A stretch of DNA of 27,764 nucleotides from a virus: the IMG/VR virus record IMGVR_UViG_3300035145_001244, positions 1 to 27,764 of that record. The stretch is one strand, 5' to 3'. The notes under the pieces were generated by a model. That model was not told the origin of the DNA, made no database searches, and worked only from the letters and a program-made list of their open reading frames with translations. Positions 11,284-20,225 of the stretch are shown piece after piece (within the stretch, counting starts at the first letter, position 1; the number at the start of each line of letters is the position of its first letter). The position numbers and the translations under genes were made by a program.

Positions 11284-14200
11284 TTATCCGAGGAGGTCGT
11301 CGACGTTACTAATCTTAACACCGTTTTTAACAAGAGCTCTATTCAATTGATTAATAGCACTTACAACTTCGGCAGAATTACCGCCTCCTCCGTCACCTCT
11401 AGCACCGTCTCTAAATGCACCAACAACACCTCCGAGTGCACCTGCAATTTTCTCAGGAATAGTTTCGTTTGACTCAGTTTGTTCACCAACTGTAGTTTGG
11501 AATGTCTTAAGAATATCGGCAAGTCTTTCCATTGCTTTTTCTAAGCTTTCACCCATTTCAGCAAGAATATCTTCAGCTTCGCCACCATTAGCCAATACAC
11601 CGAGTGCTTCGAACATTGTTCTAGCTTCAGTCAACTTAGCCAAGTCCATATTATTGATACCTTCAGCAATCTTAGGCATTGCAACAGATGTCATCATCAT
11701 ACTTGTACCAATAGTGGTCCAAAGCTTTTGTTGATCCTCATACTTATTACTAAATAGACCACCTTTTTCTTTGTTAATAAAGATGCCGCTAAAGATCTTA
11801 GCTTTATTATCGTCTAATGTATTAATCGCAGAAGTCATATTAGGAATCGCTGCACCCATTTGAGAGTATGTCAAACCTAAAACAGTGTACATTGCAGTTT
11901 TAGCAGCGTAATTAGAAATGCCACCTAAAAGACCTCGTACACTATTAGCCTGCTCTGGCATAAGAGTTGCTATTGCCGCTGTAATCTTTGGAATAGACTG
12001 GCTCATTTTACCGTAAGCTGCGGATAAAATAGTTAACATAGTAATTTTAGTAGGTAAAGTGTCTGGATTAACATCTCCACCAAAAATACTCATAAATGAT
12101 TTACCGAGTTCTGGTTTAAATTCTGCAGTTGCATTAACAATGGCTGGAATTGCGGTTTCAAAAGTTTTATATGCCTTTTCAGTGGCTTCAATTAATGCTA
12201 TTCTAAAAGGTACCATTGCAAAATTAGTGTTTTCACCTATACCCATTAGAGCGTCCATCATTAATTTAATGGTATTATGCATTTTATCAGCGTCATCAAC
12301 TGCTTTGGTCACATTAGCGGCAGACTGCGCTGCTGAAGCTAATTTTTGGAATGGTTCCCCAACTTGTTCTACTAATCTAATACCTTTTTCAAAATTAGTT
12401 GGCTTCCAGAATGCCCAACCTCTACCCTTTGGTTTCTTTTCACCAAGTTTAGTAAAGACATTAGTTAAAGCACTGATCAATTTAATTGAGTTACTTTCAA
12501 TCTTAGGAAGAAGTGTCCCTAGATCTTTAATAGTATACCATTTAGTTACATTACCTTCAGCATCATATTCAGCTGGGAATTTAAGGTTAGCCATTTCTTG
12601 AACACCTTGTGCCAAGTTAAATAATGGTGTACCCATACCACTAACAAGTTCAATACCTTTTGTAATATTAGATTTACCACCCCACCAAGTATCTCCGGCT
12701 GCATCTGGATTTGCACCGATTTTAGCGAATGTACCTGAAAGGGCACCAACTAACATTTCAGTATTAGAAGTAACCATTTGTGCAGAGTTAGCGTCAAATG
12801 GTACAAAGCCTGTTGGTTTACCTTCGGCATCAAAACCGGTTGGCATTTTTAGCATTGCCATTTCTTGAACACCAATTGCTAAGTTAGATAATGTTGTACC
12901 AAGATTTTTAACCGCAGCAATACCTTTTTGTACATCACCGCCACCCTTAAGGAAGCCCATAATACCGCCATCACTTGGTGCACCAAAGTCAACTTCAATA
13001 TCTTTGCCCGTCATCGGGTCTTTAATAGTAGTTTTACCACCTCTACCAATTTTAGCAAACGGAGCTGCGAGAGCACCTACAAGATATGCTGTATTTGTAG
13101 AAACGTTAACTACATCATCACTATTAATCTTATTATAACCAGTAGCGTTACCGTCTTTATCAAAGCCAGTTGGGAACTTTAAATTAGCCATTGATTGTAC
13201 ACCACCTGCAATATTCGTTAAGGCTCGACCCATGTTCATTACAGCCATAACACCCATTGAAACTGGGTTAGAACCGCCTAAACCAAAGAATCCACCAGAG
13301 CCACCGCTAAATTTAACTGGAACCTCTTCGCCTGTGACCGGATCAATTACATTTAAAGTACCTCCGCCTCCAATAACTGAGAATGGTACTGCTAATGCAC
13401 CTATTAATCTAGAAATGTTTTGAGCCATTTCTACAAGATCAATCTCTTCGGCAAGTTTTGCAAACTGTTTAACGCCAACTCCTACAAGAACTAAAGCAGT
13501 TCCTGCGAGTATCATTGATGCAGCACCTAAAGCTATACCCGCTGCTTCCCATGGCCACATATTAAATGCATCGCCTATACTACCAACTAATAAACCGATT
13601 GGTGTATTTCCATCTTTATCGGCCTCTGTAATTTTACCACCCTTTTTTATAACAGCCGACATGACGCTAACTCCAGCACCTAACATAATTAATGCTATAC
13701 CGGAAACTAGCATTGCAGCCGCACCTGCTAATATAAATGGAGCTGCAAGGCCAAGAAGACCAAATTCAACAGCAATCATTGCTACTAAAGCACCAACCTG
13801 ACCAATAAATTCCCAACCTCCTTTTTCTAAAGGACCAGATAAAATCATTAGACCAACGCCTAAAAGAATCATTGATATACCTGCGACTATCATTGCAGTA
13901 GCACCCTGCATAATTAATGAAGCTGCAGCACCCGCAATAGCAAATACTATACCTACTGCACCGATAATTAAAAGCGGTGCAAAAGTTTCTAATGACATTT
14001 CACTTGCTGGGAATAGAGCACCTAGAATTAAGAATCCTATACCAACAGCTACCATGGCAAGAGAAGCCCAAAGAAGTGCCATAGCACCCTTTTTAATCTG
14101 CTTTTCAAAAATACCTATTAATGCAAATGTCAGAGCAACTACACCCACAACTGCAAGTGTATTCCAAACTGCACCCCAATCTGGAATTACTATATTAAAT

Positions 14201-15153
14201 AAAGCTATAGAAACACCTATTGATAAAATACCTAAACCTGCAAATGCTAAAGCCTTTGCAGCGTTTTCCATTTTATCAGCTATCTTTAATTTTTCAATAA
14301 GCCAAAATATACCAACAACTGCAAGTAATATTGGAATAGCATATAATAAACCCTTTAGTGCCATTGGGCCAATAAAAGATATAAGTGCCATAGCACCTGT
14401 GAATGCAAGTAATCCAAGACCCAATGATAATAAACTATCACCAATGCTTTTAATATATTCAGGATCTGCTAATCCTATTTTATCTAAAATCTTAAATGTA
14501 ATACCTAATAAAAGTATTAGACCCATCGCGTAAAAAGCTCCTTGAACAGCCCACGGGCCTATAAAATAAACTAAAGCCATTGATCCTGCAAATGCAAGAA
14601 TACCTAATCCAACATTTTTAAGATTAGATAAGCTTTCCATGGTTTTTTCATCTAGCATTCTGCCGATCAACATAACGGTTCCCACGGTTAAAAACATAGC
14701 TAGCGCTATAATAGGGGAGGCCGCAGCTGTTAAAACTAATAATGGAAGCGCCAGTATCATATAACCAGCAAAAATAAGAACAGATTTACCGACATCTGCT
14801 AATTTAGTCAAGACGCCGACAATACCTTCTAATGCTTTGGCTTTTTCTTCTCCGCCATCGTCCATTTTATTAATGGCATCAACAATGTAGCCTAAACCTA
14901 AACCAATTGGTTTAAGTGAAGGTGCCATAACTGCAAGAGCCATAGACTCTGCTAAACCAATCTTTGCTTTACTACCACCTTTACCAGATGCCAGATCTTC
15001 AAGTACTTGTACCAGTTTATCTATACGCGAATACAGATCTCCGCCCTTGGTGACAGAAGCTGCCATCACCGCAGTGTTGTCTTTTATTTCGCCCAATAAG
15101 GATCCTTGATTACCTAATTTATCAAAGGCGTTTTTTAAGAAGTTTGCGTTCAA
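11284..15153 (-). CDS. Giant membrane-helix-rich protein, probable tail tape measure
   Basis: At 1289 aa the largest gene here. Residues about 55-75 and 120-560 hold many hydrophobic helices with Gly/Ala-rich repeats such as LAFAGLGILSIGVSIALF and MILLGVGLMILSGPL. Residues about 575-950 contain three or four tandem copies (roughly 90-110 aa each) built on NLAxGVQEMAxLKxPTGFD, then LVGALxxxFAKIG. The C-terminal part is helical, ending in a coiled coil and a glycine-rich segment. Size, helical repeats and position after the gp26-like and chaperone-like genes suggest the tape measure protein, which sets tail length and may enter the membrane. T4 gp29 is shorter (about 590 aa) and lacks such helices, so this is inference. 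The start is TTG at 15153; an in-frame stop lies four codons upstream. Confidence 0.72.
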   Translation of the reverse strand: MNANFLKNAFDKLGNQGSLLGEIKDNTAVMAASVTKGGDLYSRIDKLVQVLEDLASGKGGSKAKIGLAESMALAVMAPSLKPIGLGLGYIVDAINKMDDGGEEKAKALEGIVGVLTKLADVGKSVLIFAGYMILALPLLVLTAAASPIIALAMFLTVGTVMLIGRMLDEKTMESLSNLKNVGLGILAFAGSMALVYFIGPWAVQGAFYAMGLILLLGITFKILDKIGLADPEYIKSIGDSLLSLGLGLLAFTGAMALISFIGPMALKGLLYAIPILLAVVGIFWLIEKLKIADKMENAAKALAFAGLGILSIGVSIALFNIVIPDWGAVWNTLAVVGVVALTFALIGIFEKQIKKGAMALLWASLAMVAVGIGFLILGALFPASEMSLETFAPLLIIGAVGIVFAIAGAAASLIMQGATAMIVAGISMILLGVGLMILSGPLEKGGWEFIGQVGALVAMIAVEFGLLGLAAPFILAGAAAMLVSGIALIMLGAGVSVMSAVIKKGGKITEADKDGNTPIGLLVGSIGDAFNMWPWEAAGIALGAASMILAGTALVLVGVGVKQFAKLAEEIDLVEMAQNISRLIGALAVPFSVIGGGGTLNVIDPVTGEEVPVKFSGGSGGFFGLGGSNPVSMGVMAVMNMGRALTNIAGGVQSMANLKFPTGFDKDGNATGYNKINSDDVVNVSTNTAYLVGALAAPFAKIGRGGKTTIKDPMTGKDIEVDFGAPSDGGIMGFLKGGGDVQKGIAAVKNLGTTLSNLAIGVQEMAMLKMPTGFDAEGKPTGFVPFDANSAQMVTSNTEMLVGALSGTFAKIGANPDAAGDTWWGGKSNITKGIELVSGMGTPLFNLAQGVQEMANLKFPAEYDAEGNVTKWYTIKDLGTLLPKIESNSIKLISALTNVFTKLGEKKPKGRGWAFWKPTNFEKGIRLVEQVGEPFQKLASAAQSAANVTKAVDDADKMHNTIKLMMDALMGIGENTNFAMVPFRIALIEATEKAYKTFETAIPAIVNATAEFKPELGKSFMSIFGGDVNPDTLPTKITMLTILSAAYGKMSQSIPKITAAIATLMPEQANSVRGLLGGISNYAAKTAMYTVLGLTYSQMGAAIPNMTSAINTLDDNKAKIFSGIFINKEKGGLFSNKYEDQQKLWTTIGTSMMMTSVAMPKIAEGINNMDLAKLTEARTMFEALGVLANGGEAEDILAEMGESLEKAMERLADILKTFQTTVGEQTESNETIPEKIAGALGGVVGAFRDGARGDGGGGNSAEVVSAINQLNRALVKNGVKISNVDDLLG

Positions 15154-15220: not shown

Positions 15221-15229
15221 ATATATCTT
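15220..15229 (-). promoter_or_regulatory. Late-type promoter of the tape-measure gene
   Basis: The minus strand reads AAGATATATAGTATG, with GATATATA at 15220-15227, at the end of the upstream short ORF. It lacks the full TATAAATA. Confidence 0.5.
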
Positions 15230-15561
15230 TACAACTTCGGCATCTTTAAAGACGGAGTCTTCATTGATGGGACTTTAGGCATCTTAGGAGAAGTATTCTT
15301 TCGCATTGCGGCTGATTGTTTCTCCTGTTGTTCTTGTTGGTCCGTGTGTTGCTTATTCTTAGCTTTAATGTACTCTTGAAGATTTTTAACGTAGTACCAA
15401 TATTCATAGTAGTACATTTCTTCAATCTCCGAGGGTTGCATTCTAAGATGTATGCCCAGGTAGAACTTTGTCTTAAAGTAGTTCTCCAGAGAGATCTGAA
15501 ATAATGAAAAGACTTTTGATGCCACCTGGGAAGTCAAGAGGGGCTTTCGCCGGCTCTCCAT
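15229..15561 (-). CDS. Tail-assembly-chaperone-like ORF, possibly expressed by +1 frameshift
   Basis: A 110-aa frame if begun at the ATG at 15561, which directly follows an in-frame TAG. It overlaps the 3' end of the gp26-like gene by 89 bases. The first 30 residues (MESRRKPLLTSQ...) look like an overlap by-product. The convincing part begins near KTKFYLGIHLRMQPSEIEEM, a motif with clustered Tyr/Trp (YYYEYWYYVKNLQEYIKAKN) like the second ORF of tail assembly chaperone pairs, then a Gln/Lys-rich stretch and a basic tail with KMPKVPSMKTPSLKMP. A +1 slip at the CTT TAA ending the gp26-like gene (15473-15478) would enter this frame exactly at that point. T4 gp51 is an alternative comparison, not provable by eye. 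Confidence 0.7.
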   Translation of the reverse strand: MESRRKPLLTSQVASKVFSLFQISLENYFKTKFYLGIHLRMQPSEIEEMYYYEYWYYVKNLQEYIKAKNKQHTDQQEQQEKQSAAMRKNTSPKMPKVPSMKTPSLKMPKL

Positions 15562-16465
15562 CTACTTCCGCATAAAGTTCGGTTTGTACACCAATTCTCA
15601 TTTTTTCAGCAAGCCTATACATGATCATGTACTTTCTATCGTCCCATGCTTTGTAATCAACTTCTAAAGAAAAGATCTTAGTCAAAGATAATTGTCTCCA
15701 ATCAGATACAGTGTAAGGCAATATTTGAATAAACGCCTTGTCAATTTCAATTTCTTTTTCTTGACGATCTCTTAAGTAACTTGTTACTTCTTCCATCACA
15801 CCGATTGTTGGTGGCTTCATGCGCACTTCACCAGCTGATTTAGTTTGAATAACATAAGTTCTTTCTTTAGCATCGTAATACTTTTCGATTTCTGCTACGA
15901 TTTCAGTTGGAACCAAGTTTTTAACTGAAAGTTCAATCTCAACTGACTTTTTAGTCTTTTCAGTTTTACCTTTAAGGATCAACTTATTTTCTGGTTCAGG
16001 GAAAGTTAGATCTCTAATACTCAATAGTAAAATAATTCTATCTTCTTCAAGAATATCTTTGTAAGATAATTTTTTACCATTGCCAGTCATTTGAGAACAT
16101 GATGCTACAACGTGATTAAGTTTCTCTTCCATGTCGATGTAGTTATTATCGTCCATAGTTGAGAAGTGTCTAATCTCAGCTGCCTTTGCAGATCTAATCT
16201 TAAGAACAGTGTCAGCTGGGTAGAATTTACCTTTAGACGGTAGCTCATTAAGATCAAGAACATGCCATCCTAAAATGTCATCAGACTTTTCAGGTTTAGC
16301 TGGACCAAAGTTTTGCATATTAACTCTACCTAATCCAGTAGAATCAATCACTGCTTCCATTTCAGAAACGTCTTCAGCTGGAGTTTCAATGGTTCTGTTA
16401 ATACCATCTTTAGCATCCAAGGCTCTTGCCATTTCTTCTTCGTTTTTGTTTAATTCGTCACTCAT
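15473..16465 (-). CDS. gp26: gp26-family baseplate/tail-assembly protein
   Basis: A 330-aa protein. From about residue 63, DILGWHVLDLNELPSKGKFYPADTVLKIR matches the opening of the T4 gp26-like baseplate family (LPS.G.fY....I.I), followed by AAEIRHFSTMDDNNYIDMEEKL and a helical body. The N-terminal 60 residues are acidic and probably flexible. T4 gp26 (about 208 aa) works in baseplate hub assembly. Related proteins in other myophages sit before the tape measure as tail assembly chaperones, as here. The gene ends CTA CTT TAA G, with GGAG five bases before CTT, a layout like the prfB frameshift site. No Shine-Dalgarno precedes the ATG at 16465, which lies one base past the upstream stop. Confidence 0.82.
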   Translation of the reverse strand: MSDELNKNEEEMARALDAKDGINRTIETPAEDVSEMEAVIDSTGLGRVNMQNFGPAKPEKSDDILGWHVLDLNELPSKGKFYPADTVLKIRSAKAAEIRHFSTMDDNNYIDMEEKLNHVVASCSQMTGNGKKLSYKDILEEDRIILLLSIRDLTFPEPENKLILKGKTEKTKKSVEIELSVKNLVPTEIVAEIEKYYDAKERTYVIQTKSAGEVRMKPPTIGVMEEVTSYLRDRQEKEIEIDKAFIQILPYTVSDWRQLSLTKIFSLEVDYKAWDDRKYMIMYRLAEKMRIGVQTELYAEVDGEPAKAPLDFPGGIKSLFIISDLSGELL

Positions 16466-16466
16466 A

Positions 16467-16688
16467 TTATTTTTCTTTTAGGTTTTTAAGCGTTTGTTTA
16501 ACAATTGATTTTTGATCGGGAGTTTTAGACTTTAACTCTCGCTGAATAAGATCTCTTATCCATGCGCTGACTGAAATAGGTCGAGTTTCAGATTCTAAAG
16601 CATCGTTTAAGATAACCCGATTAACCTCACGCACTTCATCCTCAGTTAATAGAACTTGAAGCTTTTTGGTTAATTTGGTGTTATTCAT
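16467..16688 (-). CDS. Ribbon-helix-helix-like small protein
   Basis: A 73-aa protein. The core KLQVLLTEDEVREVNRVILN followed by SVSAWIRDLIQRELK has the beta-strand, helix, helix pattern of Arc/CopG-type DNA-binding proteins. The remainder is lysine-rich. A DNA-binding regulator would be unusual inside a tail operon; autoregulation of tail genes or a diverged structural role are both possible. An AT-rich palindrome (TAATATATTA, 16707-16716) just upstream could be an operator or promoter element. It is the first gene after the tube gene's terminator. Confidence 0.68.
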   Translation of the reverse strand: MNNTKLTKKLQVLLTEDEVREVNRVILNDALESETRPISVSAWIRDLIQRELKSKTPDQKSIVKQTLKNLKEK

Positions 16689-16776: not shown

Positions 16777-17334
16777 TTAGTTCAATTCTTCAGCCCAAAG
16801 ATCAGATCTCCAAGTGATTTCTAATGTTTGTGGATCAGCAGTTTCATAGTTTAATTCACCTGTGAAACCGATACCTGAAGTGATGAAACAATCATCAAGG
16901 GTTACTTTTCTGTAAATGTCACCTTCTCTGTTGAACTGTACGATAACAATTGTACCTACGTAGTTCTTCTTAAGACCCATTTCGCCAGTCTCAGGATTGT
17001 ACTGAGCTCTGTACCATTGTCTCATAGTTTTGTACAAGTACGCTTGGTTAGAATCGTTTAAGTTCAATGTAAAGTTAACAGTTACATCGATTGCAGTACC
17101 GTCAGGCATACCAGCAAAAGATCTGGTAGCGAATTTATATTTCTGCTCGATAGCTGCTACTTCTCTGTGTAAAGTATCTAAACCTGAAATAGAGTTGATG
17201 TGTTGTAGTAACATTTCTTGACCAGCGACGCCGTCAGGAGGCAAAATAGTCACCTCAAATAGGTTAGCCTGTACTGGTTCGAAGTTTCTGCCCTTTTTCT
17301 GAGTTTGATCTTCTGAATAATGTGGTAAAGCCAT
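16777..17334 (-). CDS. gp19: Tail tube protein (gp19-like)
   Basis: A 185-aa protein of the T4 gp19 family, which stacks as hexamers into the inner tail tube. Length is close to T4 gp19 (163 aa). The N-terminal NLFEVTILPPDG, the central FAGMPDGTAIDVTVNFTLNL and MRQWYRAQYNPETG, and the C-terminal GELNYETADPQTLEITWRSD all fit the beta-sandwich tube fold; the last segment is the typical Y....Q....tF-type end. It follows the sheath gene, as in T4, has its own late promoter and ends at a strong terminator, allowing high separate expression. Confidence 0.93.
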   Translation of the reverse strand: MALPHYSEDQTQKKGRNFEPVQANLFEVTILPPDGVAGQEMLLQHINSISGLDTLHREVAAIEQKYKFATRSFAGMPDGTAIDVTVNFTLNLNDSNQAYLYKTMRQWYRAQYNPETGEMGLKKNYVGTIVIVQFNREGDIYRKVTLDDCFITSGIGFTGELNYETADPQTLEITWRSDLWAEELN

Positions 17335-17369: not shown

Positions 17370-20225
17370 TTAAGCAAAGTTACCTGTTGCGATTTCACCC
17401 GTATTCAAGATAGTTACTCTCGATACTAAGATTTCAAGACCTTTAACTGGCTCAACGTAAGTATCAAGGATACCCATGTTGTTGTCGATAACCTCAGTAG
17501 TGTTGTTAGTTCCGTCCATGATGTTTCTGTAATCGTAAACACCACCGTCTTTCTTAACTGACTCCATAAAGTTGTCTGCCAAAGTTTTAATCTCTAATCT
17601 TGTTTGAGCGTTATTGAATTCGAACAAGTAGTTTTTCAAGATCTCTGCTAAACCGTCTTCGATATAGATCATCGCTTCTCTCACGTGAGCTGAAGACAAT
17701 GCTGATTGAATTGACTGCTGAGCTGTCTTGTTTCCTTTAATTGTCAAACCTACACCTCTTTCAAATACGATTGGGTTGTAACCGAATGGTTCAAGTACGT
17801 CTCTATCGTCTTTGTCGAATGCAAATTCTAGAGATTGTACGCCTGTACCGCCTACAACACCTCTTCTTGGCCCTGCGATGATTGACCATGGCAATGCTGA
17901 AGTGTATTTGTCGATGTAGTTGTTAGATACGTAAGCTGCAGGTGGGATCACCTTAGTTCTTCCGTTCTCGATTACATTCAAACCAGGACCGTAGTAGAAT
18001 GCGTAGTTTGCACCTTCGTTGATCGATGGTAGAGTGTAAAGTGCCGATGGATTCAAGTTCAAGTTACCACCAGTTGCAACGTATCTAGTGCTGAATGCAC
18101 CTGTGTTTTCGTCTAAGAATGATGGGTTAGTTGAAGCTTTGAATTCTTTGATCATCGGAGCGTTCAAGATAGCTGAAGCGTTTTGTCTTTCTTTACAAAG
18201 GAAAGCAAGCTCTTCTTTGTTAAGTAGACCGCCGTTCTCTAATGAACCGAAAGTATCAACAACATATCTAAATGTAATGTTATCTTTGTCAATCAATGCG
18301 TTACCTAAACCTGTACCCGGCTTAATAGCTGCCATTAACTCAGCGATTAGTTTGTCGCTTTGAGTTGCACCATCAAGTGGGAACATTGTGTAAACATCAG
18401 TTGAATCTTCATATCTCTTAAGAGCATGACCTGGTCTGCTAGAAACTGGTCTGTGTGATTCAAATTTGTAAGTAGTTACAGAACCGTCAACTGATTTGAT
18501 AATTCTCTTAATCTTAGCTAATTTACCGCCGTCAGCCGGTACATACATACCAACTTTAACTTCTGACCAATCAAATGTATCAGCGCCTGTGATTGAGAAT
18601 GCAAATTGACCAGCACCTAAATCTTCCCAAGTGTATGAAGTATTAACTCCAGGGAAAAGTACTGCTCTTGCGTTAGGATCGATTGTTGCCAATTCTAGAG
18701 TAGCTGAAGCTGCTCTTACATATGGTTGAATGCTTGCAGCTGTGATGCCATCAAAGCTTGAAGAGAATGCTTCACCTCCAACTGGAGATACTTTGATTTT
18801 AGTAGCTGAATCGTAGTTTGTATCTACGCTTGAAATTTCTACATATTCACCGGCAGTAGCGCTAGGTAAGAAGTTACCTGAGATTAATGCACCTTGGCTA
18901 GTAATGTTAGCAAATGGAATATCGAAGATTAAACCACCATCGGCAGGATCTACTGTAATTGCAACGTTTGCACCGAATACCATTGGAGCAACGTTATTAG
19001 AGTCACCGTCAAATGATTCGTAAACTGCTTTATTAAAGTTACCTTCAGATGTGCTGATAATTACATTACCGTTACCATCATCATTAACACCTTCAATCAT
19101 TAAGTATTCACCAGTAATAGCTGATTTTAAGAATTTACCAACTGTTACGTTGTATGGTGCTGCTTCGATAAGAGCTTTAGTAATACCAGTAATTTTCATA
19201 TCACCTCCATCCATAACTTCAACTTGTAAGTTAAGAGTTACAGGATCAATAGAAACCTCTTGATCAACTCTGTGTGAAAGTAATTGGTAGTCTTGGTAGA
19301 TATTGAAATCTGTACCAACTAAATCGATTGCTGCTAAAGCATCTTCGTTAACTGCACAGAATAAGCCAGTTCTTCTTGCTTCGATATTAATCAAAGTTTC
19401 GATAAACAACTGACGACCTTCATTGTCCATAAATTCTGGAATCAATGAACCAGTGTATTGTGCTAACAACTCAACTTCTCTTAAACCAGCAAACTTAGAA
19501 AGCTCTGATCTGAAAAGACCTTTATTGTCAAAGTAAGTACCGTAAGTTGGATCGTTGTTTAATTCAGCCGCATTAAATTTACCTTTGAATACCATTACGT
19601 CAACCATGTAGTCTGATACGTAGTCTAGATCATCGATACCTTCAGGGATATTACCTTCACCGTACCATTCTCTTGCAGTCATGTTAAAACCATCAGTGTT
19701 AGCCGCTTGTCTAACGATGATAGTGATAGGAGTCTGCTTGATGTTTACAAAAGAAATTGCGTGATTTGAAGCTTCATCTTCGTTACCAGCTGCTGCCAAT
19801 AATTTAGCGTCGTCTGGTGTCCAGAATTTGTCAGTATCAAATACTTCACTGTACTGTGAAGTTAAGTTAACGTGACTTAAACCTTCTTGACTTGAATTAG
19901 TAGCTGGAGAAACGATAGAAACTGTATCATCTTCGTCTGCCGCTGTTAAGTTCAAGGCTAAGATAGGTCCTCTTGAAAGAGCTTCGATAGCTGATCTGTG
20001 GAAAAACATACCTTTTCTTTCCAAAGACTTATCAATGCTGCCAAAAACTTGGATGAACTGTTCTACATCTTCGATGAAAACCGGAGTATTGTAAGGACCT
20101 TTTTTAGATCTACCTACAACTAATCTGATAGTCTCAGCTGGGATGTTAACAGTTTGTGATTTGTCAAACTCTAGACGATATACGCCTGAGCTTTTGAACT
20201 GTTGTAATTGAGGACTTAATGCCAT
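17370..20225 (-). CDS. gp18: Contractile tail sheath protein (gp18-like) with inserted domains
   Basis: A 951-aa sheath protein; T4 gp18 is about 660 aa. The N-terminal SGVYRLEFDKSQTVNIPAET, VVGRSKKGPYNTPVFIED and the C-terminal ANYAFYYGPGLNVIENGRTK, ARTKV-type core and FEFNNAQTRLEIKTLADNFM are the conserved sheath parts that form the contractile core. The excess length lies at about residues 340-600: two similar beta-rich units (with GKFLKSAITGEYLMIEGV and GNFLPSATAGEYVEISSV) plus a shorter third, probably exposed on the sheath surface. Late promoter upstream; the gene follows the terminase genes as in T4. Confidence 0.95.
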   Translation of the reverse strand: MALSPQLQQFKSSGVYRLEFDKSQTVNIPAETIRLVVGRSKKGPYNTPVFIEDVEQFIQVFGSIDKSLERKGMFFHRSAIEALSRGPILALNLTAADEDDTVSIVSPATNSSQEGLSHVNLTSQYSEVFDTDKFWTPDDAKLLAAAGNEDEASNHAISFVNIKQTPITIIVRQAANTDGFNMTAREWYGEGNIPEGIDDLDYVSDYMVDVMVFKGKFNAAELNNDPTYGTYFDNKGLFRSELSKFAGLREVELLAQYTGSLIPEFMDNEGRQLFIETLINIEARRTGLFCAVNEDALAAIDLVGTDFNIYQDYQLLSHRVDQEVSIDPVTLNLQVEVMDGGDMKITGITKALIEAAPYNVTVGKFLKSAITGEYLMIEGVNDDGNGNVIISTSEGNFNKAVYESFDGDSNNVAPMVFGANVAITVDPADGGLIFDIPFANITSQGALISGNFLPSATAGEYVEISSVDTNYDSATKIKVSPVGGEAFSSSFDGITAASIQPYVRAASATLELATIDPNARAVLFPGVNTSYTWEDLGAGQFAFSITGADTFDWSEVKVGMYVPADGGKLAKIKRIIKSVDGSVTTYKFESHRPVSSRPGHALKRYEDSTDVYTMFPLDGATQSDKLIAELMAAIKPGTGLGNALIDKDNITFRYVVDTFGSLENGGLLNKEELAFLCKERQNASAILNAPMIKEFKASTNPSFLDENTGAFSTRYVATGGNLNLNPSALYTLPSINEGANYAFYYGPGLNVIENGRTKVIPPAAYVSNNYIDKYTSALPWSIIAGPRRGVVGGTGVQSLEFAFDKDDRDVLEPFGYNPIVFERGVGLTIKGNKTAQQSIQSALSSAHVREAMIYIEDGLAEILKNYLFEFNNAQTRLEIKTLADNFMESVKKDGGVYDYRNIMDGTNNTTEVIDNNMGILDTYVEPVKGLEILVSRVTILNTGEIATGNFA

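Follow-up and report, generated by a model that had tools for sequence, protein, structure and literature searches.

Genomic context of the overlap

The window, a 27,764-nt stretch of viral DNA analysed in full (IMG/VR record IMGVR_UViG_3300035145_001244, positions 1 to 27,764), carries on its minus strand genes for a tail sheath (17370-20225; phrog tail sheath, E = 1.2e-124) and a tail tube (16777-17334; phrog tail tube, E = 4.6e-8), followed by a small ORF, a gp26-like gene (G), a second ORF with a T domain, and a long hydrophobic ORF of 1289 aa (11284-15153 (-)). The last of these had no match in a family search and, from its position and length, is the putative tape measure gene. This is the gene order of a tail, and G and T lie between the tail tube and the putative tape measure, as expected of G/GT loci. 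A large terminase gene is also present in the window. The small ORF (73 aa, 16467-16688 (-)) that separates the tube gene from the proposed chaperone genes appears ribbon-helix-helix-like by eye and had no match in family searches. At 149-1676 there is a cluster of ten phage tRNA genes, which includes tRNA-Leu(TAA); neither tRNA-Leu(GAG) nor tRNA-Phe is among the ten.

The gp26-like gene, our candidate for the short chaperone (G, or TAC-N), spans 15473-16465 (-), encodes 330 aa and ends CTA CTT TAA, followed by G. The second ORF (15229-15561 (-)) overlaps it in a frame that is exactly +1 and reads KTKFYLGIHLRMQPSEIEEMYYYEYWYYVKNL past the gp26-like TAA; its T (TAC-C) domain, SLFQISLENYFKTKFYLGIHLRMQPSE...KMPKL, covers 15229-15507 (-), with the stop at 15231-15229. 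A preliminary description, made from the sequence alone, had recorded this gene end, the exact +1 frame and a GGAG five bases 5' of the CTT, all of which are seen in the window. It had also reported a TAG directly before the only ATG of the second frame; the TAG is there, but another in-frame ATG precedes QPSE. The ATG at 15561 is not conserved, and many relatives have a +1-frame stop 3' of it. The T proteins of most phages that share this arrangement (the +1 group) have a C-terminal tail rich in Lys, Met and Pro (KMPKVPSMKTPSLKMPKL or the like; 15229-15300 (-) in the window), which is absent from cyanophage T domains.

Homology to T4 gp26 and gp51

Many tailed phages make a short and a long tail chaperone via frameshifting. 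In T4, gp26 and gp51 are paralogues, both belonging to PF12322, and gp51 alone has a C-terminal extension; the gp51 C-terminus matches a T profile at 2.2e-8. We found that the second ORF matches phrog_634 (gp51) with E = 2.8e-6. An initial profile comparison that used T4 gp26 and gp51 alone was weak, and broader sets were used instead. In these one-to-one profile-profile comparisons, to which the E-values refer, the +1 group matched the T4-like phages with a -1 arrangement (the -1 group) over the G profile (gp26, E = 1.5e-9), over the T profile (cyanophage T domain, Prob 95.3, E = 6.9e-9, hhalign) and over the whole fusion (Prob 98.8, E = 1.1e-15). The +1-group T profile gave no match directly to T4 gp51, so the link from T to gp51 goes via the cyanophage T domain. 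A single-sequence Pfam scan of the gp26-like protein gave no match, and neither fold nor sequence searches of the PDB returned one; its AF2 model (pLDDT 80.5) matched models of T4-like baseplate hub/gp26 proteins in a fold search (E = 1.2e-10 to 1.3e-3). Since the profiles match over G, T and the fusion, and the G model matches hub/gp26 models, these results indicate remote homology of both the gp26-like protein and the second ORF to T4 gp26/gp51 and point, by sequence comparison, to a tail-assembly chaperone of the G/GT kind.

In other T4-like phages, gp26 is single and the domain of the gp51 C-terminus comes after it, in the -1 frame. Of 59 unique contigs of this -1 group, 58 have TTTTTTC just 5' of the gp26 stop, and variation changes its codon phase at this heptamer. 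Neither the gp26/gp51 paralogy nor the cyanophage -1 shift is taken as new here, in view of a 2022 publication cited in PMC10885494. Phage RM378 has one PF12322 copy and no T match by profile, and it was excluded from the +1 group. Campylobacter phage CP220 has two PF12322 copies with the T domain on one of them, a T4-style, separate-gene solution in another lineage.

Conservation of the overlap among relatives

CTTTAAG and the second frame are kept in all 79 IMG/VR relatives with a readable junction (67-100% identity). Because the overlap was recovered from many metagenomes, an assembly error as its source is very unlikely. A search for relatives in genome contigs found none. Among 60 unique genes, synonymous codon diversity over the last 20 degenerate codons of the gp26-like gene was 0.042, and no other non-overlapping 20-codon window of the gene fell below 0.268; the same measure in an independent clade gave 0.059 at the gene end versus 0.286. 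The block of near-zero synonymous variation comprises codons -23 to -1 (15473-15544 (-)), while the rest of the gene is variable. On the 3' side of the TAA, variation falls on +1-frame third positions, also ahead of the first ATG there, and this stretch is therefore translated.

We further examined 12 distant relatives closely. The gp26-like gene is also present in Lak phages (in which TAG encodes Gln), PAU, Tenacibaculum phages PTm1 and pT24, Chryseobacterium phage MA9V-2, Flavobacterium phage MaF61 and several phages of 460-735 kb. In 12/12 of these relatives the second domain occupies the +1 frame, which stays open through the stop, despite varying spacing. The bases at the stop, kept among the 79 IMG/VR relatives, differ in the distant lineages (GAA TAA, AAG TAA, GAG TAA, TTT TAA and TTA TGA). 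In the 735-kb phage LR756501 (L009, 3764-4135), T begins well past the gp26-like stop, via a linker, and is still in +1.

Position of the proposed frame shift

The second frame had been described as protein-like only after the CTT. We found instead that SLENYF, which is encoded in +1 on the 5' side of the TAA, is itself part of the match to the homologous domain in other phages. The cyanophage T profile can be aligned to SLFQISLENYFKTKF... with no gap, and the window scores ~22 bits with a shift before SLENYF versus ~11 bits with a shift at the stop. Across the window's clade, shifting at the stop costs ~8-11 bits of T-domain match. Codon phase gave a similar picture. In a related clade (L001/L096/L099), variation at third positions is unrestrained as far as codon -12 (0.332) and suppressed past it (0.058, with first positions at 0.160), so the phase changes at codon -12/-11, and the +1 Leu is kept through CTG, TTA or TTG while frame 0 reads Ser, Phe or Thr. 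Over 12 lineages, the mean BLOSUM62 score of frame 0 falls from 1.55 before an [LI]F motif to -0.29 after it, and that of the +1 frame is 0.71 before and 0.65 after; frame 0 is thus better conserved up to the motif and +1 beyond. In the window's clade and the next, the homology of the second domain and the phase of its conservation start 6-12 codons 5' of the stop. Together, the T-profile scores, the phase change in L001/L096/L099 and the BLOSUM62 switch place the shift upstream of CTT TAA.

The zone CTT TTC ATT ATT TCA GAT CTC (15491-15511 (-)), invariant in 43/43 unique junctions, lines up with the site, U UUU UUC, at which T4-like cyanophages slip by -1, and the slip is most likely at CTT TTC (15511-15506); the T profile alone fails to separate positions 0 to +6 inside the zone. 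There is no universal slip sequence, given TTA TTC in L096, ATA TTC in Lak and ATT GTC in pT24. The shift site may have moved between lineages, because the profile slightly favours a shift closer to the stop in most members of the LR756502 clade, and Lak and LR756501 have a T domain that begins beyond the stop.

The preliminary description had proposed a prfB-like +1 slip at the short-form stop itself (CTT TAA G, 15472-15478 (-)), with the GGAG as stimulator. The classical slip of RF2 is at CUU U, and the window's clade keeps CTT TAA G, with CTT TAA recurring in L001/L096/L099. Overlapping +1 coding of Y/F-F-K, which matches SYYK in cyanophages, accounts for this conservation. The SD-like element of prfB has a 3-nt spacing; here GGAG stands 5 nt before the CTT and is replaced by GCAG throughout one subclade. 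A slip at the stop would also place frame-0 ELL ahead of KTKF, which does not raise the T-profile score (10.9 bits; the post-stop T alone scores 11.0), whereas the upstream +1 residues gain ~11 bits; the phase flip in L001/L096/L099 sits 6-12 codons further upstream, and distant relatives carry GAA TAA, AAG TAA or GAG TAA. CTT TAA, although invariant in the 79 relatives, was rejected as the slip site on the codon-phase and T-profile tests, and we consider a slip there unlikely.

Given a shift at CTT TTC or immediately past it, dual coding accounts for the final 11 codons of the frozen block. Codons -23 to -12 (15509-15544 (-)) are also frozen at silent sites in the window's clade, although they lie outside the inferred dual-coding part.

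A probable fusion rather than independent initiation

A separate T protein could in principle start within the overlap, at the GTG at 15525-15523 or a TTG, or arise by re-initiation near the stop. The +1-frame GTG at codon -17 and the TTG at -21 occur in 43/43 unique junctions of the window's clade, and a separate small CDS is annotated after the gp26-like gene in MaF61, MA9V-2, PAU and PTm1. However, in L001, MA9V-2, LR756501 and Lak the +1 frame holds no ATG, GTG or TTG from the shift zone to the T domain; the frame stays at +1 in all 12 lineages though the spacing varies, and T4 gp51 carries the homologous domain in frame with a gp26-like one. The annotated starts vary among phages, that of MaF61 falls inside the domain, and these small CDSs appear to be mis-started parts of the fusion. 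We therefore regard independent initiation as very unlikely. Transcriptional slippage at the short T run of CTTTTC, which could likewise give the +1 frame, is extremely improbable, as the run has only four T's, too short for any polymerase slippage known to us, and is even shorter in L096 and Lak.

A recoded G-T fusion at the overlap, predicted from sequence, is accordingly well supported by the gp26/gp51 homology, by T lying in +1 in 12/12 relatives and by the four lineages that lack a start codon. In this respect the preliminary description is supported: a short/long tail chaperone pair, recoded via the +1 frame, is indicated in a T4-related phage between the tube and the putative tape measure.

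Direction of the proposed shift and candidate stimulators

Two slips could lead into the +1 frame: tRNA-Phe could move back by two bases (-2) from UUC onto UUU, or a +1 step could carry the pairing from CUU to UUU. An AGGTGG (15522-15527 (-)), ~10 nt 5' of CTT TTC, occupies the position of GGAGGG in cyanophages and is confounded by a Gly-Gly protein motif; an SD-like stretch lies 7-10 nt 5' of the shift site in most lineages, as in the -1 group. An upstream SD spacing of 7-10 nt favours backward slips. Most lineages keep TTTTY, which allows UUC to UUU re-pairing in them, while the codon before it may begin with C, A or, rarely, G. Because TTTTY is kept, the preceding base varies and the SD-like spacing is as described, the direction of the net +1 shift leans to -2. 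Two protein motifs, Gly-Gly and Leu/Ile-Phe, confound this lean, and it does not fit L096, Lak and pT24, in which this re-pairing is not possible. In another clade (L005, with L213-L276), a strong SD-like GAG GAG GTC lies ~36 nt 5' of ATT TTC and is nearly invariant at silent sites. Bacteroidota ribosomes make little use of SD sequences, and the locus raises the question of SD-assisted frameshifting in Bacteroidota.

A hairpin TTTCAGA/TCTGGAG (15484-15501 (-)) starts 4 nt past the TTC. Taken alone, its stability equals that of shuffled sequences (z = -0.03), and a search for covariation in it found none. A nested fold around the shift site (15455-15530 (-)) pairs CCCAGGTGG (15530-15522) with CTACCTGGG (15463-15455) in an outer stem and AGTCTT with AAGAC(T) in an inner one; it reaches z = -3.31 over 78 nt, a stretch selected for its fit, and -1.75 over 96 nt. 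Across relatives, 95.5% of cells are paired, yet double (compensatory) changes are absent, and since covariation is lacking we retain this fold as part of the shift signal only as a suggestion.

Proposed model

We propose that ribosomal slippage probably gives this phage two forms, short and long, of a single tail chaperone. In this G/GT (TAC-N/TAC-NC) locus, most ribosomes would terminate at the TAA and release the 330-aa gp26-like G protein. A minority, on the efficiency we presume, would switch frame at or just past CTT TTC, 11-12 codons 5' of the stop, and read on in +1 to add a T domain of ~92 residues, giving a gp51-like G-T protein with the predicted junction ...KSL(F)SLFQISLENYFK. We hold this outline to be quite likely. 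By homology, G and GT would serve as chaperones of the tape-measure protein and the tail tube. A more specific version is possible, and we put it forward tentatively: T4's Bacteroidota-type relatives, including Lak and other huge phages, would shift by -2, with tRNA-Phe moving from UUC to UUU and an SD-like element ~10 nt upstream, at the place homologous to the -1 site, the locus having switched from -1 to -2 with its product kept and the window's clade having added a structured RNA.

Comparison with known systems

A 2016 review (PMC5009743) named T4 as the exception to G-T frameshifting. Vladimirov, Gautam and Davidson (2022), as described in PMC10885494 and PMC12846349, identified the T4-like chaperone genes (TAC-N/TAC-NC): the short and long forms have a gene each in some T4-like phages, and poly-T -1 signals occur elsewhere. 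Frameshifting of the chaperone in T4-like phages, which the preliminary description had taken to be without precedent, is thus already published, according to these two sources. Our search of the open-access literature found no report of a +1-frame version in Bacteroidota-type phages, and a net +1 variant across these phages looks new. For a large group of phages with little annotation (Lak, PAU, Tenacibaculum and huge marine/freshwater phages), the findings tie the chaperones to T4 gp26/gp51, and they fit the tiny 'gp51' genes of cyanophages, which lack the first ~200 residues (PMC3037559).

Compared with prfB (RF2), the locus shares CUU U at both candidate sites. It differs in having no conserved SD at 3 nt, in the sense codon UUC rather than a stop next at the favoured site, and in not being autoregulatory. 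The phage Mu tail chaperone offers a parallel for a possible -2 entry into the same relative frame, putative here, with a different slip sequence; if true, the -2 direction would provide a testable natural case beside Mu. Lambda G/GT shares the order of tube, G, T and tape measure and the short and extended chaperone (PMC5009743), but shifts by -1. T4 gp26 corresponds to G and T4 gp51 to the G-T fusion proposed here; in T4 these are two separate, divergently oriented genes that need no shift. The gp26-gp51 locus of T4-like cyanophages, Pelagibacter and Sinorhizobium phages has homologous G and T domains, a shift at the homologous 'GxxS-[FL]-F' position and an SD-like element ~10 nt upstream. 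That locus uses the -1 frame and the heptamer U UUU UUC that define the T4-like -1 TAC genes, whereas here the frame is +1 (net +1 or -2) and the site xUU UUC, CTT TTC in the window. Homologous chaperone loci would thus reach the same two products by three routes, namely the -1 frame, the +1 frame and gene duplication.
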